DNA of 64,000 nucleotides from Fictibacillus macauensis ZFHKF-1. Its GTDB lineage: Bacteria > Bacillota > Bacilli > Bacillales > Fictibacillaceae. Position numbers and translations under genes: made by a program. The stretch is taken from the NCBI RefSeq assembly GCF_000269865.1, contig NZ_AKKV01000020.1, forward strand, positions 1 through 64,000, written 5' to 3'. Of the stretch, positions 6,401-26,633 are shown piece after piece; the stretch's first letter is position 1, and every line of letters starts with the position of its first letter. The notes under the pieces are model-generated. The model was not told the DNA's origin. It ran no database searches and was given only the letters and a program-made list of their open reading frames with translations.

Positions 6401-6600
6401 TGCCTCATTTAACGATGGGGTAGAGGCGCAAAAAGGAAAAGTACGTTTCATGGAGTGAGTAGGCACGATGATAGAAACGGAAAGGCCGATTTGCCGAAGT
6501 GTGAACAAATACCTATTATTTGCTCATGCTGGGTCGTTGTTGAATAAATAACGGACTGTCACTGCTTTAAGCAGTGGAGCACTATTCCGGCAAATGGGGG
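6401..6600 (+). promoter_or_regulatory. Lysine riboswitch (L-box)
   Basis: The aptamer shows the conserved L-box blocks in order: GGGGTAGAGGCGC (6417-6429), AAAAGTA, GGAAAGGCCGATTTGCCGAAG (around 6480-6499), TGCTGGGTCGT, GGACTGTCACTG and GTGGAGCACTATTCC. Helix P1 can form between CCTCATTT at 6403-6410 and AAATGGGG at 6592-6599, with one G-U pair. A strong terminator follows at 6615. Lysine binding is expected to favour termination and so shut off lysA, which makes lysine from diaminopimelate. Confidence 0.93.
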
Positions 6601-6709: not shown

Positions 6710-8029
6710 ATGTTTTTACACGGTACGAGTAACATTAATGAACAAAATCATTTAACAATTGGGGGTGTGGATACGATCTCATTAGCCCGAACATATGGCA
6801 CCCCGCTTTATATTTATGATGTGGCTCTAATTCGCAAACGCGCACGCGCATTTAAAGAGGCATTTCGTCAACATGGCGTGACCGCTCAAGTAGCCTATGC
6901 GAGCAAAGCTTTTTCCTGTTTGGCACAAGTGCAAGTGATGAAAGAAGAAGAGATGAGCTTAGATGTTGTATCAGGTGGCGAGCTTTATACGGCTCTGGCG
7001 GCAGGGTTTCCACCTGAACGCATTCACTTCCATGGCAATAATAAAAGCAAAGAAGAAATAGCGTATGCGCTCCGAGAAAATGTGGGCTGCTTTGTCGTTG
7101 ATAATGATTATGAACTGCAACTTCTTAATGTGATGGCCGCCCAACAACAAAAAAAGCCGAACATATTATTGCGCATGACGCCAGGTGTGGAAGCGCACAC
7201 GCACGATTACATTTTAACGGGGCAAGAAGATTCTAAGTTCGGTTTTGATTTACAAAATGGGCAAGCTGAAACCGCGCTCGTAACTGCGCTTACGATGCAG
7301 CACCTAACCGTATTAGGCATTCACGTTCATATCGGTTCACAAATTTTCGAATGTGATGGCTTTGTTGTCACCATTCAAAAGCTATACGAGGCAATGGCGA
7401 CCTGGCAGCAACGGTATGAATTTATACCAACCGTTTTAAATTTAGGTGGAGGATTTGGGATTCGCTATACGGAGGAAGATGAGCCTCTTGAGCCTGAAGT
7501 GTATATTTCCGCTATGATGGACGAAGTAAAGCGCTGCTGTGCGCACTATGAGCTGCCCCTTCCTGAAGTGTGGATCGAGCCAGGACGTGCCATTGTTGGT
7601 GATGCAGGCACGACCATTTATGCGATCGGTTCTCAAAAAGCCATTCCTGGCGTGCGTCATTATGTAGCAGTAGATGGAGGAATGAGCGATAACATTCGGC
7701 CAGCTCTTTATTCGGCACAGTATGAAGCGATGATTGCTAACCGAGCTACCGAACAAGGAACAGAAAAGGTTGCGATTGCAGGGAAGTGTTGTGAGTCTGG
7801 TGACATGCTTATTTGGGATTTGCCGTTACCAGCCGTAACAGATGAAGACTTTTTAGCCGTCTTTTGTACCGGAGCGTATGGCTATGCAATGGCTAATAAT
7901 TACAATCGTTTGCCAAGACCGGCCGTTGTTTTTGTAGAGAATGGACACGAACAACTTGTCATTCGTCGAGAGCGCTATGAAGATGTCATGGCGCTTGATG
8001 TGCCATTGCAACAAGGAGCGCCCGTGTGA
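6710..8029 (+). CDS. lysA: Diaminopimelate decarboxylase
   Basis: PLP enzyme that decarboxylates meso-diaminopimelate to L-lysine, the last step of lysine synthesis. At 439 aa it is full length. Landmarks are AYASKAFSC with the PLP lysine at about K66, HVHIGSQ, the glycine-rich LGGGFGIRY, the inter-subunit CCESGD motif, and GAYGYAMANNYN near the C-terminus. AAAAGGAGAGGG precedes the ATG. It is transcribed from its own riboswitch-controlled leader and ends in a terminator. Confidence 0.97.
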   Translation: MFLHGTSNINEQNHLTIGGVDTISLARTYGTPLYIYDVALIRKRARAFKEAFRQHGVTAQVAYASKAFSCLAQVQVMKEEEMSLDVVSGGELYTALAAGFPPERIHFHGNNKSKEEIAYALRENVGCFVVDNDYELQLLNVMAAQQQKKPNILLRMTPGVEAHTHDYILTGQEDSKFGFDLQNGQAETALVTALTMQHLTVLGIHVHIGSQIFECDGFVVTIQKLYEAMATWQQRYEFIPTVLNLGGGFGIRYTEEDEPLEPEVYISAMMDEVKRCCAHYELPLPEVWIEPGRAIVGDAGTTIYAIGSQKAIPGVRHYVAVDGGMSDNIRPALYSAQYEAMIANRATEQGTEKVAIAGKCCESGDMLIWDLPLPAVTDEDFLAVFCTGAYGYAMANNYNRLPRPAVVFVENGHEQLVIRRERYEDVMALDVPLQQGAPV

Positions 8030-15330: not shown

Positions 15331-15861
15331 GTGACCATCATGAACACGTTTTCCGTTTGGTTTATTCCATTACTAATTGGCGGAATCCTAGTCTATGGTA
15401 CTGTGAAAAAAGTCCCGACCTATGAATCGTTTGTAGAAGGAGGAAAAGAGGGGTTTTCGCTCGCTGTTTCCATGATTCCTTACTTAGTAGGTATGCTTGT
15501 CGCTATTTCTGTGTTTCGGGCTTCGGGCGCAATGGATGCGATCATTAGTGTGGGTAAACCGGTCTTTGAATGGTTTCACATTCCTGCCGAGGTCGTTCCC
15601 CTTGGCTTAATGCGAACCATTTCTGGGAGTGGTGCCTTAGGCATGACGTCTGATCTTATTGCATCTTATGGACCGGATTCCTTTATTGGTCGACTTGCTT
15701 CTACCATTCAAGGTAGTACAGATACGACGTTTTACGTGTTAACGGTTTACTTCGGAGCTGTTGGTATTCGAAAAATGGGCTATGCCCTAAAAGTAGGACT
15801 GTTAGCAGACCTTGTTGGCTTTTTAGCTTCCATTTTTGCGGTAACTGTGTTTTTTTCCTAA
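15331..15861 (+). CDS. spmB: Spore maturation protein B
   Basis: A 176-aa membrane partner of SpmA with the same gate-domain fold: FVEGGKEGFSLAVSMIPYLVG, FRASGAMDAI, LGLMRTISGSGALGMTSD and QGSTDTTFYVLTVYFGAVG. The best start is GTG 15331, 8 nt after GGGAGAGG. ATG 15340 is too far from the site. It is the last gene of the dacB-spmA-spmB unit and the left border of the accessory block. Confidence 0.93.
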   Translation: MTIMNTFSVWFIPLLIGGILVYGTVKKVPTYESFVEGGKEGFSLAVSMIPYLVGMLVAISVFRASGAMDAIISVGKPVFEWFHIPAEVVPLGLMRTISGSGALGMTSDLIASYGPDSFIGRLASTIQGSTDTTFYVLTVYFGAVGIRKMGYALKVGLLADLVGFLASIFAVTVFFS

Positions 15862-15880
15862 GAAAAGAGAGGAAGATGTT

Positions 15881-15904
15881 AGGGCGCTAATGCGTCTTTT
15901 TTTT
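15881..15904 (+). terminator. Weak terminator after spmB
   Basis: AGGGCGC (15881-15887) pairs with GCGTCTT (15892-15898) across TAAT, using two G-T pairs, followed by eight T. The rest of the 356-bp gap before the lasso genes is AT-rich and holds the regulatory elements listed next. Confidence 0.6.
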
Positions 15905-16042
15905 ATACGAAATAAGAGAAATGTATATGAGCCCTCATGTTAGAAAAAATGTAGATGAGCGAAAAGGTGCGTCATGCAAGAGAAAATGACCATTATAATT
16001 AAATAATAAAAATATTAATCTTGAAAATTTTTAAGAATGAGG

Positions 16043-16071
16043 TTGACAACAGATTCCTTAGGTGGTAATTT
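16043..16071 (+). promoter_or_regulatory. Candidate promoter of the lasso cluster
   Basis: TTGACA at 16043-16048 is a perfect -35. The -10 position 17 nt later holds TAATTT (16066-16071), a weak match. The next elements downstream are a 16-bp palindrome and two related inverted repeats. A weak -10 overlapped by a palindrome is typical of a regulated promoter. Confidence 0.5.
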
Positions 16072-16085
16072 TAAGTTAACTTAAA
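16070..16085. promoter_or_regulatory. 16-bp perfect palindrome, possible operator
   Basis: TTTAAGTTAACTTAAA is self-complementary over all 16 bases. It overlaps the end of the proposed -10 and the likely start point, a typical repressor position. AT-rich palindromes also arise by chance in such regions, so function is inferred. Confidence 0.45.
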
Positions 16086-16086
16086 T

Positions 16087-16194
16087 GTTCTTTAAAACGA
16101 ACGGACATAAAAATTGCAGAAGCTACGAATATAGATTTTTAATTTTGAGGTTAGTAGCCATCTTTTTTTTACATAATGGTTCTTAATAGAGAAC
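16087..16194. repeat. Two copies of a 16-bp imperfect inverted repeat (GTTCTT-N6-GAAC)
   Basis: GTTCTTTAAAACGAAC (16087-16102) and GTTCTTAATAGAGAAC (16179-16194) share 12 of 16 bases, and each has GTTC/GAAC half-sites. Both lie between the proposed promoter and the cyclase start codon, the second only 23 bp before it. They may be binding sites for one dimeric regulator. No regulator gene lies in the cluster. Confidence 0.4.
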
Positions 16195-16217
16195 AAACGA
16201 AAGAGTGTTGGAGAGAC

Positions 16218-18158
16218 ATGAGTGCAATCGCTGGAATGCTTCGATTAGATGGAGCGCCCATTCATATAGAATACGGACAACGCCTAATGAAATCGTTGCA
16301 ACGGTATCCGGCGGATCACGTGCAAAGCAAACAAAGTGAAAATTGGTTTTTCGGCTGTCATTTACAATGGTTAACAGAAGAAGCGGTTGGAGAAGAGCTG
16401 CCCTACTGGGAGCGTGAGCGAAATGTCGTCATTACGGCAGATGCAATTATTGATAATCGCGATGAATTGTTCGCTTCACTACAAGTGCCTATTCAAGAAC
16501 AACGACACATGACAGATAGTCAGTTAATTCTTTCTGCGTATAAAAAGTGGGGAGAGGACTGCCCGAACTATTTAGTCGGCGACTTTGCTTTCATGATCTG
16601 GGATGAACGAGAGCAACAATTATTTGGCGCCCGCGACTTTTCAGGTGCACGTACGCTGTATTATTCGGTCACGAATGCGTGGTTTGCCTTTTGTACGGTC
16701 ATCAAGCCGCTTATTGAAAGTGAGCTTGTTCCTTCCAAATTGCACGAGCCGTGGCTTGCTGAATTTCTTGGGAATCCGTGGAAATTTGATGCGGTAGATG
16801 GACGTTCGACTCCCTATTCCGATGTCTTTCAACTGCCGCCTTCTCATAGTATCGTTGTGAAGAACGGCAACGTAAAGCTTCGTCAATATTGTGTTATAGA
16901 AAAAGAAGCGTTGCGTTTATCTTCTGATGAAGCATATGAAGAAGCCTTTCTTGATGTCTTTCAAAAAGCCGTTACATCACGTATGCGGACACGAAAAAAA
17001 GTGGGCGCGCATTTAAGTGGTGGCTTGGATTCAGGATCGGTCGCCTCATTGGCAGCGCATGAATTGCGTAAAGAAAATAAAGTGCTTCATACATATAGCT
17101 ATGTTCCGGTGGATGATTTTCAAGATTGGACACACGTTAGCCGTGTAGCTGATGAACGACCTTTCATTCAATCAACCGTTGCTCATGCTGGTAATATTGA
17201 TGATCGCTATTGCTCGTACCCAGAAAGAAATCCGTACAATGATATCGATGATTGGCTTGACGTCATGGAAATGCCGTTTAAGTTTTTTGAAAATGGCTTT
17301 TGGCTAAAAGGGATCTATGAGCAAGCAGCAGCAGAAGGCATAGGGGTTTTATTAAACGGACAGCGTGGCAATTGGACCGTTTCATGGGGACCGCTGCTAG
17401 ATTACTATGGAAGCTTAGTGCGCAACTTTCGCTTTTTAACGCTAAATAAAGAATTAAACGCACATAGTAACCTCGTTGGTGCACCCAAAAAGAAAATTTT
17501 CAAGCGTGTTCGCTCGAAGGTGTTTCCGAAATTAAATAGCTTTATGCACCCGAATGCGGTGCAATCACTTCCGCAGCTAATCGCACCACATTTTGCAGAA
17601 GAGATGAACGTCCTTGAGAAACTAACAGCGCACGATGTAGATCCTACTGGGACAATCATTCGCACGCCTTATGAAGTGAGAAAACATCAATTTGAAAAGC
17701 TGTTTTATTGGAATACAACTGGGACGTATGGAGCGAAGTTATCGCTGCGATACGGTTTAGTTGATCGGGATCCGACGAATGATTTACGAGTAGTGAAATT
17801 TTGTTATTCTGTGCCGGAAGATCAATTCGTAAAAGATGGATACAATCGTGCGCTCATACGTCGAGCGATGAAGGGATATTTGCCGGATGACATTCGCTTA
17901 AATATGACAAAGCGGGGCGTTCAAGGAACGGATGGCATTCATCGGATGGTAAAAGCGGGTGACTGGCAAGCTTTTATTCAGGAAGCAAGAATGCTGCTTG
18001 AAGATCCGGCAACAAAAGCATTTTTTGATTATGAAACAGTCAAAGGTGCGCTAGAGACGATAAGTGAAGGACCAAAGGGTGAATATATTTTCAATTTTGA
18101 TTTTCCTTTAGTTATGCGCTTTATCATCGTACATCGTTTCTTGAAAAAAATGGCTTGA
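16218..18158 (+). CDS. Lasso peptide macrolactam synthetase (asparagine-synthetase-like cyclase, C protein)
   Basis: ATP-dependent enzyme that adenylates an Asp/Glu side chain of the precursor core and closes the macrolactam onto the N-terminal amine while the tail is threaded. The 646-aa product has an inactive glutaminase-like N-terminal half starting MSAIAGMLRLDG (no Cys at position 2, so no glutamine hydrolysis) and an AsnB-type synthetase half with the pyrophosphate loop S267-GGLD-S272. ATG 16218 is preferred over the upstream GTG (16176) because GGAGAG precedes it and the start matches the family. The precursor gene follows after 14 bp. Ordinary asparagine synthetase is excluded by the missing Cys and the neighbours. 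Confidence 0.93.
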   Translation: MSAIAGMLRLDGAPIHIEYGQRLMKSLQRYPADHVQSKQSENWFFGCHLQWLTEEAVGEELPYWERERNVVITADAIIDNRDELFASLQVPIQEQRHMTDSQLILSAYKKWGEDCPNYLVGDFAFMIWDEREQQLFGARDFSGARTLYYSVTNAWFAFCTVIKPLIESELVPSKLHEPWLAEFLGNPWKFDAVDGRSTPYSDVFQLPPSHSIVVKNGNVKLRQYCVIEKEALRLSSDEAYEEAFLDVFQKAVTSRMRTRKKVGAHLSGGLDSGSVASLAAHELRKENKVLHTYSYVPVDDFQDWTHVSRVADERPFIQSTVAHAGNIDDRYCSYPERNPYNDIDDWLDVMEMPFKFFENGFWLKGIYEQAAAEGIGVLLNGQRGNWTVSWGPLLDYYGSLVRNFRFLTLNKELNAHSNLVGAPKKKIFKRVRSKVFPKLNSFMHPNAVQSLPQLIAPHFAEEMNVLEKLTAHDVDPTGTIIRTPYEVRKHQFEKLFYWNTTGTYGAKLSLRYGLVDRDPTNDLRVVKFCYSVPEDQFVKDGYNRALIRRAMKGYLPDDIRLNMTKRGVQGTDGIHRMVKAGDWQAFIQEARMLLEDPATKAFFDYETVKGALETISEGPKGEYIFNFDFPLVMRFIIVHRFLKKMA

Positions 18159-18172
18159 AAGGGGGTGACAGT

Positions 18173-18298
18173 ATGAAAAAAGAGTGGAACACACCAGTAT
18201 TAGAAGTACTTGATGTAAACATGACAATGGCTGGACCTGGTCTCAGAATCGCTGACGCAGTGCAACCGGATGAAGACGAAACGGTACACTACAGCTAA
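18173..18298 (+). CDS. Lasso peptide precursor (paeninodin-like)
   Basis: This 41-codon gene lies just after the cyclase, with a strong AAGGGGGTGACAGT ribosome site. The leader (residues 1-19) begins MKKEWNTPVLEVLDVN and ends Thr-Met, giving the conserved Thr at -2. The 22-residue core begins A1-G-P-G and has Asp at core position 9, so an Ala1-Asp9 ring is expected. The acidic tail ends His-Tyr-Ser. Leader, AGPG start, D9 and the Ser C-terminus match paeninodin of Paenibacillus. In that family the terminal Ser is phosphorylated by the clustered kinase. Ring residues 5-8 (L-R-I-A) and parts of the tail differ from paeninodin as I remember it. Confidence 0.95.
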   Translation: MKKEWNTPVLEVLDVNMTMAGPGLRIADAVQPDEDETVHYS

Positions 18299-18313
18299 GA
18301 ACATGTTGGATGG

Positions 18314-18352
18314 AAAAAGCCCTTATACTGTTATAGTATGAGGGCTTTTTTA
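18314..18352 (+). terminator. Terminator/attenuator between precursor and kinase
   Basis: A 16-bp stem with one G-T pair (18314-18329 with 18335-18350, loop GTTAT) ends in a T run. It lies inside the cluster, so partial read-through would give much more precursor mRNA than mRNA for the modifying enzymes. Confidence 0.88.
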
Positions 18353-18383
18353 CAAAAACCTTAAACAATTCGGAGTGACGAAG

Positions 18384-19301
18384 GTGACAAAGAGTTATTA
18401 TGCATTTGGTTTAACGATAGAAAGTGATCTAGAACTGCAAGAACTACAGAAATTGTCTGATGCTACTGAAGTGGATGTAAACGTTACGTTTACAGATTTA
18501 CAAAGTGCTTGGGACAAGATTGAAGGACAACCGGGCAAGTTTGCGGTAAAAGGACAAACAGTGATGTTTAATGTACCTGATACGGCGATTTTTCGCATTG
18601 AAAAGGGAGAAAGAATTGAGATTTCCCCTGTGCAACAGTATATGGAAGATAAAATGCGGTTATATGTGTTAGGCACGTGTATGGGCGTAATTCTCATGCA
18701 ACGGCAAACGTTATCGCTACACGGAAGTGCCATAGCAATTGATGGAAAAGCGTATGTTTTTGTTGGACATTCAGGTGCTGGTAAATCAACGCTAGCGAGT
18801 GCTTTTATTTCGAAAGGTTATCCCTTGCTAAGTGATGACATCGTTCCAATTACGATGTATCACGGGCAGGTGCCGTATGTACTTCCTTCTTATCCACAAC
18901 AAAAATTGTGGAAAGAAAGCTTAACACAACTTGGCATGGAAGCTTCGTATGACCCGTTATTTGAGAGAGAAAATAAATTTGCAGTACCGTTAGGACATGC
19001 TTTTTATAATGAACCACTTCCGCTAGGCGGCATTATTGAGTTGTTTCAAATGGATGATGAGGGCGTTGTGATGGAGGACGTTTCAAAGCTTGAAAAACTA
19101 CAAATGATCTATCGCCATACGTTTCGTCAGTCATTGTTAGGAAAAATGGATCTTATTCAATGGCATTTATCAACGGCAACTGCGTTAACCCATAATCTTG
19201 ATTGTTATCGAATCTATCGAACGAAAGGCCGGTTTACAGCATACGAAATGGTTTCGGTACTTGTAGAGACACTAGTAAAAAAAGAGGAAGTGACATTATG
19301 A
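18384..19301 (+). CDS. HPr-kinase-like lasso peptide serine kinase
   Basis: Predicted to phosphorylate the C-terminal Ser of the lasso precursor or peptide, as shown for homologues in the paeninodin and pseudomycoidin clusters. The 305-aa product has an HPr kinase-type P-loop (G128-HSGAG-K134-ST) and the paired aspartates in LLSDDIVPI (D151, D152) that distinguish this family from ordinary kinases. It lacks the HPr kinase/phosphorylase N-terminal domain. GTG 18384 is preferred: GGAG at 18372-18375 is 8 nt upstream, whereas GTG 18375 overlaps that site. The stop overlaps the next start (ATGA). Confidence 0.92.
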   Translation: MTKSYYAFGLTIESDLELQELQKLSDATEVDVNVTFTDLQSAWDKIEGQPGKFAVKGQTVMFNVPDTAIFRIEKGERIEISPVQQYMEDKMRLYVLGTCMGVILMQRQTLSLHGSAIAIDGKAYVFVGHSGAGKSTLASAFISKGYPLLSDDIVPITMYHGQVPYVLPSYPQQKLWKESLTQLGMEASYDPLFERENKFAVPLGHAFYNEPLPLGGIIELFQMDDEGVVMEDVSKLEKLQMIYRHTFRQSLLGKMDLIQWHLSTATALTHNLDCYRIYRTKGRFTAYEMVSVLVETLVKKEEVTL

Positions 19302-19576
19302 CACTAGCAATAGATGTAAAAGTGATGCAAGAAGCAGGCTATGCAGTAAGTGACATGGCAGGCGAAAAAGTATTGTTAAGCATTGAAAAAGGCAAGTATT
19401 ATAATTTAGGAGAAACGGGCGGTCTTCTTTGGGAATTAATGAGTGAACCGAAAAGTATTGAACAAATCATTACAGAAGTCATGGAAGAATATGCGGTAGA
19501 GCGTTCTGTATGTGAGCAAGAAGTTCTTGCTTTCATTACTAACTTGCAAAATGAAAACTTAATCCGTGTGTTATAA
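19298..19576 (+). CDS. PqqD-like leader recognition protein (B1)
   Basis: A 92-aa winged-helix RiPP recognition element that binds the precursor leader and presents it to the peptidase and cyclase. PqqD-family features are visible in VLLSIEKGKYYNLGETGGLLWELM and the C-terminal helix FITNLQNENLI. In Bacillota lasso clusters the leader-processing function is split between this protein and a separate protease, as here. It starts within the kinase stop codon, so the two are coupled. Confidence 0.93.
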   Translation: MTLAIDVKVMQEAGYAVSDMAGEKVLLSIEKGKYYNLGETGGLLWELMSEPKSIEQIITEVMEEYAVERSVCEQEVLAFITNLQNENLIRVL

Positions 19577-19593
19577 CGCAGGAGATTATGGCT

Positions 19594-20031
19594 ATGAGAA
19601 AGAAAGTAGCAGCATTAAATAAAAGGCATGTGTGGATTTTAGTTGAAACGTTATTTTATGTTGGGTGGTCGCGCTTGTTATTACTCCGTCCTTTTGCAAA
19701 AGTAGCACCATCACTTGGTACACAATCACGTGAAACGATGCTCGGTCAGCCTACTGCAACGATTATTCCAACACTTGAAACGATTGCCTCAAGCCTTCAT
19801 ATCGTTAATAGATGGGCACCGTGGAATACGAAGTGTCTCGTTCGAGCAATCGCTGGTACAAAAATGTTAAAACGAAGAGGAATTGAAAGTACCCTATATT
19901 TAGGGACTGCGAAAGATGAGGATGGTCAGCTTATTGCGCATGCTTGGTTACGCAGTGGAAACTTTATTCTTACCGGTGGCGACGAGATGAAGAAATTTAC
20001 GGTCGTCTCCAAATTTGCAAACGAAAGATAG
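19594..20031 (+). CDS. Transglutaminase-like leader peptidase (B2)
   Basis: Cysteine protease that removes the precursor leader before cyclisation. The 145-aa product shows the family's active site: Cys81 in WNTKCLVRAIAGTKML, His116 in LIAHAWLRSG, and a downstream acidic residue in the GGDEMKKF stretch. The N-terminal region is hydrophobic and helical, as usual. GGAG at 19581-19584 lies 9 nt before ATG 19594 and 3 nt before ATG 19588, so the former is used. Confidence 0.92.
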   Translation: MRKKVAALNKRHVWILVETLFYVGWSRLLLLRPFAKVAPSLGTQSRETMLGQPTATIIPTLETIASSLHIVNRWAPWNTKCLVRAIAGTKMLKRRGIESTLYLGTAKDEDGQLIAHAWLRSGNFILTGGDEMKKFTVVSKFANER

Positions 20032-20041
20032 AGGAGAAGTT

Positions 20042-21202
20042 ATGATTCAAATCGAAAGGCTCGATGTTTCACAAGTGCCAAAAGAAGTGTTCAGTATAAC
20101 ACAAGTACTTGATGATCGTTGTCAGGTTGGAGAGGTGCTTCATTCAATTGAAGATTGGAAGCTGTGGTTAACGATGACGCTTCATCATCGTTTATTTCCG
20201 GTCGTATATAGTCAACTTCGAGCGATTCAATTCAAAGGGATTCCAGACGAAATACAGGCCACATTAAATAAGCATTATCAAAAAAATGTATTTCGTATGC
20301 TTGCTTTAAGTGCAGAAATGAGTCGTATACAGGCGCTTTTTGACGAGCACAACATTCGTGTGCTTTCGTTAAAGGGGCCTGTTTTAGGAATAGATTTATA
20401 TGGCGATATGTCACTGCGCTCCTCATCAGATTTAGATGTTATGGTTTCACTGCGAGATTTAGTCAAGGTGGAACATTTATTGGAAGAACAAGGCTATGTA
20501 AAAGATGAATATATCCAATCCGTCTTGAATGATTGGAAGTGGCGACACCATCATTTTACGTATTTACATCCTGACCGCCAAGTGAAGGTAGAGGTGCATT
20601 GGCGATTAAACCCAGGTCCAGGGAAGGAACCGACTTTTGAAGCGTTATGGCAGCGCAAACGAACGTTATCCAACTCATCTGGAGAATTACATGTATTGAG
20701 TCGTGAAGATTTATTTTTATTTCTTATTACGCACGGAGCAAGACACGGCTGGTCACGCCTTCGTTGGTTACACGATATCGATCGTCTCGTTAGACAAGGG
20801 TTTCAATGGGATGAGGCGACGGCTTTATTAAAAAAGTACAGTTTTGAAGATTTGGCAGGACAAGCGTTATTATTATGTGAAAAAATATTCAACACGCCAC
20901 TTCCTTCACCATTAAAACAGCTCTGTCAGAGCAAGCGTGCTTTTTTTCTTGCACAAGCAACGGTGTTTTACTTAGAACGACGTGTGAATTTACATCAAGA
21001 GCCCGTTCCGGAAGACATTGCTTCCTATCATAAAGTATATTTGCGACAAATAATGAATCGAGAACAACGGTTGTTGTACGTAGTAAGCGTCGTTCACCCA
21101 TTTTATACGGATGTAGAAACGTTACCTCTTCCAAAACAGCTGCATTTCTTGTATTTTCCGTTGCGCCCGTTCTTATTTTTGTGGAGAAAAGTGATCTCCT
21201 AG
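20042..21202 (+). CDS. Nucleotidyltransferase-family tailoring enzyme of the lasso cluster
   Basis: A 386-aa protein of the NTP_transf_5-type family. The nucleotidyltransferase signature GIDLYGDMSLRSSSDLDVMV carries the metal-binding D130-x-D132, followed by a helical C-terminal region (HHHFTYLHPDRQVKVEVHWRL, RHGWSRLRWLHDIDRL). Homologues occur in paeninodin/pseudomycoidin clusters, where the protein is linked to attachment of further groups (hexose) to the phosphorylated C-terminus. The donor here is unknown. GAGGAGAAG precedes ATG 20042, 10 bp after the peptidase gene. Confidence 0.85.
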   Translation: MIQIERLDVSQVPKEVFSITQVLDDRCQVGEVLHSIEDWKLWLTMTLHHRLFPVVYSQLRAIQFKGIPDEIQATLNKHYQKNVFRMLALSAEMSRIQALFDEHNIRVLSLKGPVLGIDLYGDMSLRSSSDLDVMVSLRDLVKVEHLLEEQGYVKDEYIQSVLNDWKWRHHHFTYLHPDRQVKVEVHWRLNPGPGKEPTFEALWQRKRTLSNSSGELHVLSREDLFLFLITHGARHGWSRLRWLHDIDRLVRQGFQWDEATALLKKYSFEDLAGQALLLCEKIFNTPLPSPLKQLCQSKRAFFLAQATVFYLERRVNLHQEPVPEDIASYHKVYLRQIMNREQRLLYVVSVVHPFYTDVETLPLPKQLHFLYFPLRPFLFLWRKVIS

Positions 21203-21215
21203 GAGAGATGAAATC

Positions 21216-23006
21216 ATGAAAGAAATCATGCATTATATGAAGGGTTTATATCAATTTAGTGGTAAGGTATGGTATTTAAATTTATTTGGAATGATTGTTG
21301 TTAGTTTTCTTGAAGGTATTGGTTTATTTTTGTTGATTCCGATCTTATCAATCAGTGGTATTATTGATAACCCTACGTACCGTTTCGTTTCGTTAGATGG
21401 TTTTACGATGTTAAAGCGTCTATCGCCGACTGTTATTTTAGTCATTGCGCTTTGTGTGTTTATTTTCGTAGCTGTTATGCAAGGTGTGTTACAGAGAACG
21501 TTAAACGTATTCACGGTAAAATTTCAGCATCGATACATACAAAAATTACGAACGTCTTTATATGATTTGCTTCTTCATGCAAGCTGGCGTTTTTTCATTA
21601 GTAAACGAAAATCAGACTTAACAAATGCGCTCACGGTTGAATTAGCGAGGGTGAACGCTGGGGTTGGTCTAGTCATGCAATTATTAACAGCAGTTATCTT
21701 TACGCTAATTCAAATTGTATTAGCGTTTGTGATTGCACCAACGATTACAGTATTCGTCTTATGTTCAGGTGCGGTTCTTGCTGTATTTTCTCGCAAATTT
21801 ATAAAAAAATCGAAGGCGCTTGGTGCAAGATCCTCACGGATTGCTCAAGATTACTTAGCGGGAATAACGGATCAATTAAGTGGTATGAAAGATATAAAAG
21901 TGAATCATTTGGAAAAAGATCGTCTTCGCTGGCTTCGTGAAATAAATGAGCGAATGGTTGAAGAACAAGTGGAGTATACAAAAATAAGATCAAATTCGCA
22001 GTTTTTTTATACTGTATCTTCAACGGTGTTCATTGCTCTTTTTATCTTTTTATCACTCCAATTGTTTCACGGGCAAACGACACAGTTATTGCTTGTTGTT
22101 GTTATTTTCTCCCGACTGTGGCCCCGTTTTACAGGAATTCAATCTAATATTCAGCAGCTTGCATCCTATGCGCCTGCCTTTCAATTCATTCGTCAGCTTG
22201 AATTAGAGTGTGAAGAGGCCAGTGAGAAACAAGATAGTCAAGAAAACAAGCGATTGGCAATTGAAGAAGGTATTACGTGTAGCGATGTATCTTTTCGCTA
22301 TCTGTCCGAAAAGGAAACATATGCTTTGCGACATATTAATGTTACGATTCCTGCGAATCAAATGACAGCGATTGTAGGTCCTTCTGGTGCAGGAAAAAGT
22401 ACGCTTATTGATTTGTTCACGGGCTTGCATCGACCGGAAAGTGGCCACGTACTTGTGGATGGTCGTGACCTAGAAAGTGGTATTTTGTATGATTTACGGC
22501 ACTCCGTTAGCTATGTTCCCCAAGATCCATTTTTATTTAATGAAAGCATCCGCGATAATTTGAAAATTGTAAAGCAAGACGCGACGGAAGAAGAGTTGTG
22601 GGAAGCGCTTGAAATTGCAGAATGTGCATCTTTTGTTGCGAACTCTCCAGACGGACTTGATACGATGATTGGTGATCGAGGGATGAAGTTATCAGGAGGA
22701 GAGAGACAGCGGCTCGTGTTGGCACGTGCTATTCTGAAAAAGCCATCCTTGCTTATTTTGGATGAAGCAACTAGTGCACTGGATTCTAATAACGAGGCGA
22801 AAATTCAAGAGGCTATTGAAAGAATGAAAGGCTCAATGACCATTGTTGTCATTGCCCATCGTTTATCGACGATTACGCATGCAGATCAAGTTATTGTTGT
22901 GGAACGAGGTTGCATTGTACAAAACGGAAAGTATGCACAATTAGCCCAGGATGAAACAGGAATGTTTCATGAACTATTGCAAAAGCAAGTATCTACTCCA
23001 AAGTAA
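21216..23006 (+). CDS. Lasso peptide ABC exporter (D protein)
   Basis: A 596-aa ABC half-transporter with an N-terminal six-helix membrane domain (about 1-310) and a C-terminal ATPase. It has Walker A G388-PSGAG-K394-ST, the signature LSGGERQRLVLARA, Walker B LLILDEATSALD and the switch His in VIAHRLSTI. There is no C39 peptidase domain, consistent with separate leader removal. It is the last gene of the lasso unit and should export the mature peptide and give self-protection. GGAGAG precedes the ATG. Confidence 0.92.
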   Translation: MKEIMHYMKGLYQFSGKVWYLNLFGMIVVSFLEGIGLFLLIPILSISGIIDNPTYRFVSLDGFTMLKRLSPTVILVIALCVFIFVAVMQGVLQRTLNVFTVKFQHRYIQKLRTSLYDLLLHASWRFFISKRKSDLTNALTVELARVNAGVGLVMQLLTAVIFTLIQIVLAFVIAPTITVFVLCSGAVLAVFSRKFIKKSKALGARSSRIAQDYLAGITDQLSGMKDIKVNHLEKDRLRWLREINERMVEEQVEYTKIRSNSQFFYTVSSTVFIALFIFLSLQLFHGQTTQLLLVVVIFSRLWPRFTGIQSNIQQLASYAPAFQFIRQLELECEEASEKQDSQENKRLAIEEGITCSDVSFRYLSEKETYALRHINVTIPANQMTAIVGPSGAGKSTLIDLFTGLHRPESGHVLVDGRDLESGILYDLRHSVSYVPQDPFLFNESIRDNLKIVKQDATEEELWEALEIAECASFVANSPDGLDTMIGDRGMKLSGGERQRLVLARAILKKPSLLILDEATSALDSNNEAKIQEAIERMKGSMTIVVIAHRLSTITHADQVIVVERGCIVQNGKYAQLAQDETGMFHELLQKQVSTPK

Positions 23007-23071
23007 TCTAATAAGTTTCGACGTATTATGAATATTTGTGAGGGTTAATGATAAAAAAACTTAAAGCTTTA

Positions 23072-23100
23072 TTGACTTGTTCATTATAAAGAACTAGAAT
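23072..23100 (+). promoter_or_regulatory. Sigma-A promoter of the exopolysaccharide operon
   Basis: TTGACT (23072-23077), a 17-nt spacer and TAGAAT (23095-23100) form a good housekeeping promoter about 100 bp before the Wzz-like gene. The polysaccharide genes therefore need not depend on lasso transcription, although no clear terminator separates the two units. Confidence 0.72.
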
Positions 23101-23197
23101 AAGGTAGAAATGTGTCATAAGTACCTGTTTTTTAATGGTTGTTGTTCTTTATATTGAATATAACGTGCAAAACCAAAAATCAAGCGAGGTGGTAATA

Positions 23198-23833
23198 ATG
23201 CCGGAAACAGGTAAAGAGATTAATGTAAGAGAATGGTTTAATGTATTGAAACGGCGTTACGTAATCATTGTCTCCGTCCTAGCGTTATTTTTACTAGGGA
23301 CGTTTTTGTATTCGAAGTTTACGATGTCTCCGTTGTATCAATCATCAGCACGCATTATTATTGGCGCTGATCCTGAAAGAATGAAGACGCTACAAGTTAT
23401 TATTCGTGATCCAGCGGTAATGACCAAAGTGGTTAAAAAAGCGGGTCTAAAAACGACACCAGAGGCATTGGCTGGTCAAATCGTCGTTCAAAGCATTAAT
23501 GAATCACAAGTTGTAAGTATTACAGCAACGGATGCTAATGCAGAACGAGCTGCGAAAATTGCAAACACAACAGCGAAAGTATTTAAAAAACAAGTGCCAA
23601 ACCTATACAAGTTTAAGGACGTACGTTTATTATCAAGTGCAAAAGTAAATTTCGCACCGATCAATGATAATTTTAAACGCAATATGTATTTTGGGTTATT
23701 TGGGGGACTAGCAGTCGGAATTCTAATAGGACTCTTTTTTGAATCACTAGATGGAACGGTGCGTTCGAAAAAAGAAATTGAGGATCTTGGAATTCCTGTA
23801 TTAGGGAAAGTTGCGAAGTTTAAGCAGAAATAG
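23198..23833 (+). CDS. epsA: Wzz-type chain-length determinant / tyrosine kinase modulator (EpsA-like)
   Basis: A 211-aa membrane protein with Wzz topology: a short cytoplasmic start, a membrane helix near 22-42 (YVIIVSVLALFLLGTFLY), an external domain, and a second helix near 168-188 (MYFGLFGGLAVGILIGLFFE) followed by a charged tail. Such proteins set polymer length and normally activate the partner BY-kinase. The start at 23198 has GAGGTGG upstream. The frame is open to 23135 but lacks a site there. The next gene is the kinase relative, as in epsAB. Confidence 0.87.
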   Translation: MPETGKEINVREWFNVLKRRYVIIVSVLALFLLGTFLYSKFTMSPLYQSSARIIIGADPERMKTLQVIIRDPAVMTKVVKKAGLKTTPEALAGQIVVQSINESQVVSITATDANAERAAKIANTTAKVFKKQVPNLYKFKDVRLLSSAKVNFAPINDNFKRNMYFGLFGGLAVGILIGLFFESLDGTVRSKKEIEDLGIPVLGKVAKFKQK

Positions 23834-23859
23834 ATTAAAAGATTCAAGGAGTGAGAGAA

Positions 23860-24510
23860 TTGCTTTCTAATAAAAATAAAAACGGCACGAGCAGTCAAAA
23901 AGAACTTCTTGCATTGTCTCAACCAGACTCAGATCTTTTTGAACAATATCGTGCCATTCGAACAAGTATTCATTTTTTAAAAGATGTAGGCGATCAAGTC
24001 TTTTTAATTACATCCCCTGGCGATCAAGAAGGAACGTCAGGAACTGCAGCTAACTTAGCTGTATCAATTGCACGCCAAAACGAACGTGTATTGCTTATTG
24101 ATGCAAACCTACGACATTCCTCATTGCACACATTATTTAATCTTGATAATAAAAAAGGAATGTCAGAAGTATTAAGAAAAAATGTTTCCCTCGCTGACGT
24201 TATTCAAAAGACTATGGTAGAAAACCTTCATATTGTAACGAGTGGAGCTTCAGCTGGAAACCCTGTAGAACTATTAGGATCTGAACATATGCAAGCGTTT
24301 ATGGCAGATGTGCGTAAGGCATATGATGTCATTTTAGTAGATACACCTTCACCTGTTAAAGTTGCTGATGCAAAAATGATTGCTCAACATAGTGACGGTG
24401 CCATTCTTGTTATTAGTAACGGAGCGACAACGCGTGAAAGTATTGTTGAGACAAAACAAATACTAGAAATGGCTGACACGACGATTGTTGGAGCCATTAT
24501 TAGCCAATAA
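23860..24510 (+). CDS. BY-kinase (CpsD/EpsB)-like protein with degenerate Walker A
   Basis: A 216-aa CpsD/CapB-type P-loop protein placed as EpsB. The fold is clear (FEQYRAIRTSIHFL, AANLAVSIARQNERVLLIDA, the DVILVDTPSP Walker B), but nucleotide-binding residues are altered. The usual GEGKST is replaced so that the lysine position is T59 (QEG-T59-SGT), and the A' motif DADLR reads D81-A-N83-L-R. The C-terminal tyrosine cluster is absent: the protein ends GAIISQ. It is therefore unlikely to be an active tyrosine kinase. It starts at TTG 23860, 8 nt after AAGGAG. Confidence 0.85.
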   Translation: MLSNKNKNGTSSQKELLALSQPDSDLFEQYRAIRTSIHFLKDVGDQVFLITSPGDQEGTSGTAANLAVSIARQNERVLLIDANLRHSSLHTLFNLDNKKGMSEVLRKNVSLADVIQKTMVENLHIVTSGASAGNPVELLGSEHMQAFMADVRKAYDVILVDTPSPVKVADAKMIAQHSDGAILVISNGATTRESIVETKQILEMADTTIVGAIISQ

Positions 24511-24554
24511 TTTTTTTAGAATAATGTTCTTTATTAAGTACGAACGTGTAAAAA

Positions 24555-24664
24555 AGGGATGTCTCCTTCCTTTTATCAATGGAGGCACTCGGCTATGCTG
24601 TGGGCGAAGAAGGCCTTAGACGTTTGTCGTCGAGAGTATGGTGTGAGGTTGGGTTAGATGCCCT
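24555..24664 (+). ncRNA. EAR / epsC antitermination RNA element (candidate)
   Basis: The 296-bp gap between the epsB-like and epsC-like genes holds a structured G-rich segment exactly where the EAR (Rfam epsC motif) lies in B. subtilis. A closing helix can form between AGGG(A)TGTCT at 24555-24564 and AGATGCCCT at 24656-24664 with the A bulged. Inside are GGAGGCACTCGGC, GTGGGCGAAGAAGG and GTCGTCGAGAG blocks that look like RNA rather than coding sequence. A terminator follows at once. EAR promotes read-through of terminators in long polysaccharide operons. The call rests on position and hand folding. Confidence 0.72.
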
Positions 24665-24670
24665 ATAATT

Positions 24671-24710
24671 AGCATCTTCGGGACAGAGATCCTGAAGGTG
24701 CTTGCTTTTT
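24671..24710 (+). terminator. Internal terminator of the polysaccharide operon
   Basis: AGCATCTTC (24671-24679) pairs with GAAGGTGCT (24694-24702), followed by TGCTTTTT. It lies just after the EAR-like element and before the epsC-like gene, so it is a natural target for EAR-dependent read-through. Confidence 0.72.
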
Positions 24711-24806
24711 CTTAAGAGGCTTTAAGTATGAGCTTTTCATAGGAAGAGCTCATAGTTAAAGTCTTTTGAGTGCTCATAAGAAGCACGGAAAGGAGTGAGA
24801 AGAGCG

Positions 24807-26633
24807 TTGACGTATCGACAAAGGCTTTCTTTGTTTTTAATTGTTGATTCTTTCATTGTGTTAACAGCGATTTATTTCAGTCGTTTTCTTGTAGACGCTG
24901 ATATTCATGTGATTACAATGCCGATTGTCATCAGTTCAATCACAATTGTTGTTAGTCATCATATTTTTTCTATTATTTTTAAGTTGTATAAAAAAGCGTG
25001 GGAATATGCGAGTGTTGGCGAATTAGTCGTAATCTTAAAATCGGTAACACTGTCTATAATTGGAGCGGCCGTTGTTCAGCAGGTTGTCTTACGTGATATT
25101 CATTTTCGCTTATTAGTCGTAACGTGGCTGATTCACATTTTAGCGATTGGTGGTTCTCGTTTTTGTTGGCGTGTATACCGTGATACATATATTGTTAAAA
25201 AAACAGACAAAACAAAGACGATTATTATTGGTGCTGGAGCAGCAGGTACGATGGTTGCGCGACAATTGTTAAGAAATAAAGGAGCAGATATGCTTCCAGT
25301 TGCTTTTATCGATGATGATAAACGAAAGCAAGGACTTGATATATTAGGAATTCCAGTTGCTGGTGGTGTTAATGCGATTGAACAAGTGACAAGCATTTAC
25401 GGAGCTGCTCATATTATTATCGCTATTCCTTCGTTAAAACGAAAAGAACTGAATGTCGTTTTTAATGAATGTGCAAAAACAAAAGCAAAAACACAAATTA
25501 TCCCCAAGCTTGAAGATTTAATGAGCGGGAAAGTGTCTGTTAATCAATTTCGTGATATTAAGGTAGAAGATTTACTCGGTCGAAAGCCCGTCCATTTAGA
25601 TATGGAAGGTATTTCGGAATATGTGAGCGGAAAAGTAGTGCTTGTAACAGGAGCGGGCGGATCGATTGGTTCGGAAATTTGTCGCCAAATCACCCTATTT
25701 AATCCGCGTAAACTCGTATTACTCGGTCATGGAGAAAACAGTATTTATAGCATTGAAATGGAATTGAAAGAAAAAATCCAATCACAAGCCATCGAAATTG
25801 TTACAGAAATTGCAGATCTTCAAGATCAACAAAAGATGCTTGATGTCGTTGGTAAGCATCAACCAGATGTTATTTATCATGCAGCCGCACATAAACACGT
25901 GCCGTTAATGGAAAGAAATCCAGAGGAAGCTGTAAAAAATAATGTCATTGGGACACGAAACATCGCCGAAGCTGCAAGTTGGCATCGCGTAAAAACGTTT
26001 GTCATGATTTCGTCGGATAAGGCTGTAAACCCAACGAGCGTGATGGGCGCAACGAAACGGCTCGCTGAAATGATTGTTCAGAATATGGATAGTAAGAGTG
26101 AAACAAGATTCGTAGCCGTACGATTTGGTAATGTACTAGGCAGCCGTGGCAGTGTGATACCACTGTTTAAAAAACAGATTGAAAAAGGTGGACCGGTGAC
26201 GGTTACACATCCCGAAATGGTTCGCTACTTTATGACAATTCCTGAGGCATCTCGTCTCGTTGTTCAAGCAGGTGCCCTCGCTCAAGGCGGCGAAATTTTC
26301 GTTCTTGATATGGGTGAGCCGGTTAAAATTACGGATTTAGCACAAAATGTGATTAAACTATCAGGGAATTCTGTTGAAGACATTGGCATCGAGTATACAG
26401 GCATTCGACCGGGCGAAAAGCTGTTTGAGGAACTATTGAAAAATGATGAAGTGCATGAGGAACAAATTTATCCGAAAATTTATGTAGGAAAGAAAAGCGC
26501 ATCCCTTTACCTACAAGATATAGAGCAACTAATAGAAAACTTACCGAGTATATCGAAAGAAGAACTGAGAATGAAACTATTACACTATACAAATCCTTCT
26601 TCAGTTCCTCAATCGGATTTTGCTACTGTTTAA
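24807..26633 (+). CDS. epsC: Membrane UDP-sugar 4,6-dehydratase (EpsC-like)
   Basis: Converts UDP-GlcNAc to the 4-keto-6-deoxy sugar, the first step toward bacillosamine. The 608-aa product has four N-terminal membrane helices (about 1-110), a first Rossmann domain ([17 protein letters not shown]), and a second extended short-chain dehydrogenase domain ([17 protein letters not shown]) with the catalytic segment [17 protein letters not shown] typical of long dehydratases. TTG 24807 is chosen. The in-frame GTG at 24795 overlaps the AAAGGAG site. The 11-nt spacing is slightly long, so the start is less certain than the function. Confidence 0.92.

Follow-up and report, generated by a model that had tools for sequence, protein, structure and literature searches.

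The stretch of Fictibacillus macauensis ZFHKF-1 DNA analysed here (64,000 nt; positions 1 to 64,000 of contig NZ_AKKV01000020.1; hereafter the window) carries a lasso peptide gene cluster of the paeninodin type at 16218-23006. Seven intact genes, all on the plus strand, follow one another in the order C-A-K-B1-B2-N-D at the positions given in the original prediction, which had described a complete cluster; the family matches in Table 1 bear this out, and the paeninodin-type family of the cluster is established. Residues likely to be catalytic are well kept. Specifically, the SGGLDS motif of the cyclase C (residues 267-272) and H113, K134, D151 and D152 of the kinase K are each conserved in at least 97% of 80 aligned sequences, and the same holds for C83 and H118 of the peptidase B2 (69 sequences) and for D130 and D132 of the nucleotidyltransferase-fold enzyme N (58 sequences), the window's own sequence being included each time. 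The four K residues would correspond to the HKDD motif of lasso peptide kinases described in PMC9266682. The closest solved chain to B1 is 9x90_B, entitled 'Lasso peptide biosynthesis PqqD family chaperone' (E 1.1e-25). Judged from its sequence, the operon is intact and very probably works.

Table 1. Features of the lasso peptide cluster and of the adjoining exopolysaccharide operon.
Feature	Position	Strand	Match
C, lasso macrolactam cyclase (asparagine-synthetase-like), 646 amino acids	16218..18158	+	PF00733 (Asn_synthase), PF13537 (GATase_7)
A, precursor, 41 amino acids, 19-residue leader + core AGPGLRIADAVQPDEDETVHYS	18173..18298	+	NF033524 69 bits, cut-off 27
Terminator-like hairpin, 18 pairs, with T run, between A and K	18313..18351	+	RNA fold
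K, HPr-kinase-like kinase for C-terminal Ser, 305 amino acids	18384..19301	+	weak HPr-kinase matches
B1, leader-binding recognition element (RRE, PqqD-like), 92 amino acids	19298..19576	+	NF033536 119.8 bits, cut-off 80
B2, leader peptidase (transglutaminase-like), 147 amino acids	19588..20031	+	NF033537 103.8 bits, cut-off 33
N, NTP_transf_5 nucleotidyltransferase-fold enzyme, 386 amino acids	20042..21202	+	PF14907 206.6 bits, cut-off 31.2
D, ATP-binding cassette (ABC) exporter, 596 amino acids	21216..23006	+	PF00664, PF00005
wzz-like, tyrosine-kinase-like and UDP-sugar 4,6-dehydratase-like genes, first of the exopolysaccharide operon (neighbour, outside the core cluster)	23198..26633	+	PF02706, TIGR01007, PF02719
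epsC leader RNA in the exopolysaccharide operon	24554..24664	+	RF01735 101.7 bits, gathering 42

Relatives were taken from three sets. The PadeA gene is present in 5 of 34 genomes of the Fictibacillaceae. An order survey, in which the PadeA model was run on 397 genomes sampled from the larger group of the order, gave matches in 89 (the window's own genome included) and 140 further precursor places from 88 genomes, two of which score under the family cut-off; the neighbourhoods read around them make up 106 regions of at most 20 kb each. Finally, a named-genome scan contributed the best 80 of 88 loci, on which all counts over 80 related loci rest. The order survey and the named-genome scan overlap partly, with some genomes in both.

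The precursor consists of the leader MKKEWNTPVLEVLDVNMTM and the 22-residue core AGPGLRIADAVQPDEDETVHYS, with Asp9 and a terminal Ser; the leader carries the WxxPxL motif (W5, P8, L10) and Thr at -2 (T18). In every one of the 140 further family precursors the leader Trp and Thr-2 are spaced by 13, and 137 of them have a C-terminal Ser, so the precursor match is not a chance one. The 22-residue core and Thr-2 of the original prediction are thus confirmed, and its Ala1-Asp9 ring is, because this spacing and the Ser end are kept so widely, a sound prediction, though a prediction only. Likewise, phosphorylation of the C-terminal Ser is supported as a prediction by a core that ends in Ser and the presence of an HPr-like kinase.

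The hairpin between A and K is strong (the stretch 18290-18372 folds at -26.3 kcal/mol, z -5.3) and may allow A to be produced in excess; it is absent from the list of the terminator scan of 15800-25000. It was rejected as a family feature, as no more than 4 of 80 relatives have a similar hairpin, compared with 20 of 2000 random stretches.

The order of biosynthetic steps that we propose is as follows. B1 would bind the WxxPxL leader and K would phosphorylate Ser22 of the precursor; B2 would cut after Thr-2/Met-1, and C would close a 9-residue ring between the Ala1 amine and the Asp9 side chain, with the tail trapped inside. N would then add hexose to the phosphate and D export the product. 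According to the review PMC9266682, PadeK phosphorylates the C-terminal Ser of its precursor; in pseudomycoidin biosynthesis the phosphate comes from PsmK, and the phospho-Ser receives one or two hexoses from PsmN. Computed monoisotopic masses are 2321.092 for the lasso peptide and 2401.059 with phosphate and, as K and N are both present, 2563.112 and 2725.164 are expected with phosphate and one or two hexoses respectively. The water loss with and without +80 Da that had been proposed for mass spectrometry is incomplete, because the hexose suggested by the N gene was left out.

Two characterised products offer the nearest comparison. Pseudomycoidin (Bacillus pseudomycoides, psm genes) is likewise made with a kinase and a nucleotidyltransferase gene, the latter being the mark of the pseudomycoidin-like glycosylated subgroup and present here as N. 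Its core AGPGKRLVDQVFEDEDEQGALHHS (ring positions 5-8 KRLV; review table in PMC12427821) has AGPG, Arg6, Asp9, the terminal Ser and a charged and hydrophobic ring in common with ours, but has 24 residues, 13 of them identical in the alignment; the comparison covers the cores. Paeninodin (Paenibacillus dendritiformis, pade genes; core AGPGTSTPDAFQPDPDEDVHYDS in the same table) shares the AGPG....D ring, the C-terminal Ser, the kinase and 15 identical residues. It differs in its TSTP at ring positions 5-8, its 23-residue core and its YxxP leader (precursor printed in PMC11594732), which is WxxP here. Related clusters occur in Priestia flexa, in Fictibacillus and in further Bacillales. Precursor identity reaches 83%, with 80% for Priestia flexa, 78% for Fictibacillus fluitans and 71% for F. 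arsenicus, and the present peptide differs from these in ring residues 5-8. Linear polyphosphorylated peptide (LPP) clusters, as described in PMC13381572, resemble it in their kinase, RRE, nucleoside triphosphate (NTP)-transferase and exporter types and in their polysaccharide neighbourhood, but have no cyclase, a SipW-like peptidase and a YxxP...HQ leader. An LPP partner cluster in the window's genome was considered and rejected on the strength of two genes: neither N (the single PF14907 match lies in the window) nor B2 has a further counterpart in the genome. Outside the window, contig 25 (G000:C25:130643-130807) carries another PqqD-like match, a weak one of 27.9 bits.

The cluster opens a genomic island. 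Upstream of it lie genes which we take to be dacF, spmA and spmB; downstream follow the wzz-like and tyrosine-kinase-like genes, the epsC RNA, the UDP-sugar dehydratase-like gene and many glycosyltransferase genes, and, from 46543, genes labelled rluB and resB after matches to the pseudouridine synthase (PF00849) and ResB families. The distance from spmB to rluB is 30,682 bases here and about 100-120 in three relatives, one of the same genus (G285) and two of the same family (G084, G326). Since the site is empty in these, the lasso and exopolysaccharide genes form one insertion of 30.7 kb (15862-46542), with the lasso operon first and the exopolysaccharide operon as the rest. G+C content differs little, at 40.9% and 38.3% for the lasso and exopolysaccharide genes and 41-44% in the flanks. 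A common insertion site for the relatives was rejected: none of the 106 survey regions matches the window's dacF, spmA, spmB, rluB and resB proteins, and against these regions the cluster is seen at spmB-rluB in the window's genome only. The epsC RNA acts by antitermination, and a terminator-like 13-pair stem lies directly after it at 24671-24702; the scan found seven such sites in total, against 6.8 by chance.

The exopolysaccharide neighbourhood recurs among relatives. In all five family genomes with a PadeA gene, wzz lies 5.0-5.3 kb beyond the precursor (0-4 wzz matches per genome), and the four other than ours have the same gene order before wzz-wze-pglF; beside the Priestia flexa cluster there is no wzz within the stretch read. 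Among the 80 related loci, wzz and wze are found together in 34 (kinship uncorrected). In 23 of these, wzz follows downstream on the same strand (median distance 5219 bases); in the other 11, whose titles all name Paenibacillus, it lies upstream and on the opposite strand. The order survey tells against any universal link: wzz and wze are present in just 12 of the 87 regions that hold C, K and B2 and in 11 of the 19 other regions (23 of 106 overall, kinship again uncorrected). According to PMC13381572 (2026), paeninodin clusters are often found together with capsular polysaccharide loci, and one strain showed joint up-regulation with an exopolysaccharide gene; the paper describes the role of paeninodins as unknown. 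The exopolysaccharide link is thus already published, and the window offers a clear instance of it.

This neighbourhood could be accidental, arising for instance from a shared insertion hot spot or from common descent, with no functional link. The two parts do share one island at spmB-rluB, the remaining 75 of the 87 survey regions hold no wzz and wze within the stretch read (at most 20 kb), and the neighbourhood counts are uncorrected for kinship. Yet two distinct arrangements recur, one with wzz downstream in the same orientation and one with it upstream in the opposite orientation, and stand-alone precursors precede wzz in other genomes, so that we regard an accidental neighbourhood as rather unlikely, if a serious possibility. 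We prefer a functional link: because the lasso operon is the first section of an island that is otherwise an exopolysaccharide operon, the cell surface or the matrix is the probable place of action of the peptide. With its site empty in three relatives, the island is a compact test case for the role of paeninodins and the function of N, and it is in the exopolysaccharide link and the N enzyme that most of the interest lies.

The stand-alone precursors were seen in nine genomes (L088, L094, L098, L099, L112, L113, L119, L132 and L139). They combine a paeninodin leader with a Lys-initial, often Pro-rich core (KGW.., KFF.., KFH..) and are followed by wzz-wze-pglF. The nine stretches, of 15-20 kb, hold no cyclase match; in all nine genomes C, K, B2, N and D are found together 22-33 kb beyond the stand-alone precursor, and both bracket the exopolysaccharide locus. 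Lys-initial cores account for 23 of the 140 precursors, 20 of them without an acid at positions 7-9 and all 23 ending in Ser. Perhaps they are linear phosphopeptides made in trans. A term search of PMC13381572 found no mention of orphan, stand-alone or second precursors; no other literature was searched for them.

To characterise N, its structure was predicted together with 29 relatives (mean predicted local distance difference test score 91.4, predicted template modelling score 0.90); by sequence, N matched no solved structure at E up to 1. In a fold search with this model, three of the matches listed reach E 0.001: LnuA, an adenylyltransferase acting on antibiotics (E 5.2e-4), a nucleotidyltransferase from Thermotoga, and ANT(2''). 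FKRP chains make up 13 of the 50 matches listed, the best at E 1.7e-3 and thus weaker than LnuA, and the title of one FKRP structure names CDP-ribitol and a sugar acceptor as bound partners. CDP-ribitol is the donor from which FKRP transfers ribitol phosphate. All matches are partial, with a template modelling score normalised by N of at most 0.35 among those listed. The model thus shows a predicted nucleotidyltransferase fold and suggests that N may not be a classical glycosyltransferase but an enzyme that attacks a sugar nucleotide.

The fold matches of N and the exopolysaccharide neighbourhood together led us to a bolder idea, which we consider improbable, namely that the lasso peptide is a ribosomally made glycan acceptor. 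K would place one or more phosphates on Ser22 and N would move hexose-1-phosphate from a sugar nucleotide to the peptide phosphate, giving peptide-phosphate-phosphate-hexose (mass about 2643.08), a kind of linkage borne by undecaprenyl carriers. Extension of the sugar by glycosyltransferases encoded in the neighbouring exopolysaccharide operon could follow, so that a knotted peptide would be joined to polysaccharide. If true, this would explain why the products of one native host escaped mass spectrometry.

Several points weigh against a working operon with a phosphorylated and hexosylated product. Against the NCBIfam lasso cyclase model NF033535, C scores 377 bits, below the cut-off of 525, and K reaches 31.6 bits against PF07475, under the cut-off of 33.3, the NCBIfam kinase models scoring lower still. 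As for the hexose, a host glycosyltransferase could add it after nucleotidylation by PsmN, according to PMC9266682. Section 7 of PMC13381572 reports that in Paenibacillus alginolyticus no mass belonging to the product of the native lasso cluster was detected, and that deletion of the N gene in a sister LPP cluster caused no detectable change in a heterologous host. A silent cluster that makes nothing in its host would fit the missing native product of that relative, and also our promoter scan, in which the 25 promoter-like sites in 15800-25000 compare with a shuffle mean of 23.0 and none stands out upstream of the cluster. Silence is nevertheless very improbable, because all reading frames are intact, the likely catalytic residues are kept and, in that same Paenibacillus relative, stationary phase brings a joint rise of the lasso and exopolysaccharide genes (PMC13381572).

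A further claim of the original prediction concerned the ring, whose residues LRIA at positions 5-8 had been set against small polar ones in paeninodin and thought able to change what the peptide binds. We therefore took a census of related cores of the form xGPGxxxxD without two Cys, Asp9 thus being required by selection. From the order survey 37 of 140 rows were kept (36 distinct) and 103 dropped because the core lacks this pattern or holds two Cys; the named-genome loci gave 73 distinct cores, for a pooled total of 97. All 97 end in Ser. Position 5 is L/I/V/M/F in 68, position 6 K/R in 50 and position 7 hydrophobic or aromatic in 52; at position 8, 74 cores have Pro and 15 have Ala. Altogether there are 62 different forms of positions 5-8, and seven cores are one residue away from LRIA, including AGPGLRIVD, AGPGKRIAD, AGPGERIAD and AGPGLTIAD. 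Thr stands at position 5 in a single core, so that it is paeninodin itself that is less typical of the family; and since pseudomycoidin has KRLV, positive and hydrophobic ring side chains already occur in a characterised product. The difference from the TSTP of paeninodin stands, but not as a notable departure for the family: positions 5-8 are its variable part and, as far as the aligned cores tell, the ring is ordinary variation.

The original prediction had also proposed searching for an identical core. None, nor identical residues 1-9, was found among the 97 related cores or the four other precursors of the 34 family genomes; plasmids held no identical core (one record matched, 59% over 78% of the query), and a text search of a limited paper collection did not find AGPGLRIAD. 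The exact core thus appears unrecorded within the sources searched. That LRIA marks a notably new lasso peptide with changed binding is, despite this lack of an identical core, hardly credible in view of the variety at positions 5-8, the seven near-identical rings and the KRLV of pseudomycoidin. As a single peptide it is one more natural ring variant in a large family.

Leaders with YxxP instead of WxxP were seen in 18 of the 80 related loci, all titled Paenibacillus (L151, L155, L159, L160, L166, L168-L171, L174, L181, L186, L189, L192, L195, L204, L205 and L209); all 18 are included in the ring census and 14 have xxIAD rings. Together with the YxxP precursor of paeninodin (PMC11594732), they qualify the statement in PMC13381572 that the Trp is nearly invariant in paeninodin-like leaders.

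In 21 of the 106 survey regions, two cyclase-precursor pairs precede a single K-B2-N-D set (L048, L055-L058, L060, L064, L065, L072, L073, L079, L083, L085, L090-L093, L095, L096, L104 and L108), one of the two cores in each region having Cys, mostly as NGPGNxN..C. Elsewhere in the window, a group II intron match lies at 1232-1302, just past an open frame truncated by the beginning of the window (region 1-1302), and a lysine riboswitch at 6413-6592 stands ahead of an open frame of 439 amino acids at 6710.

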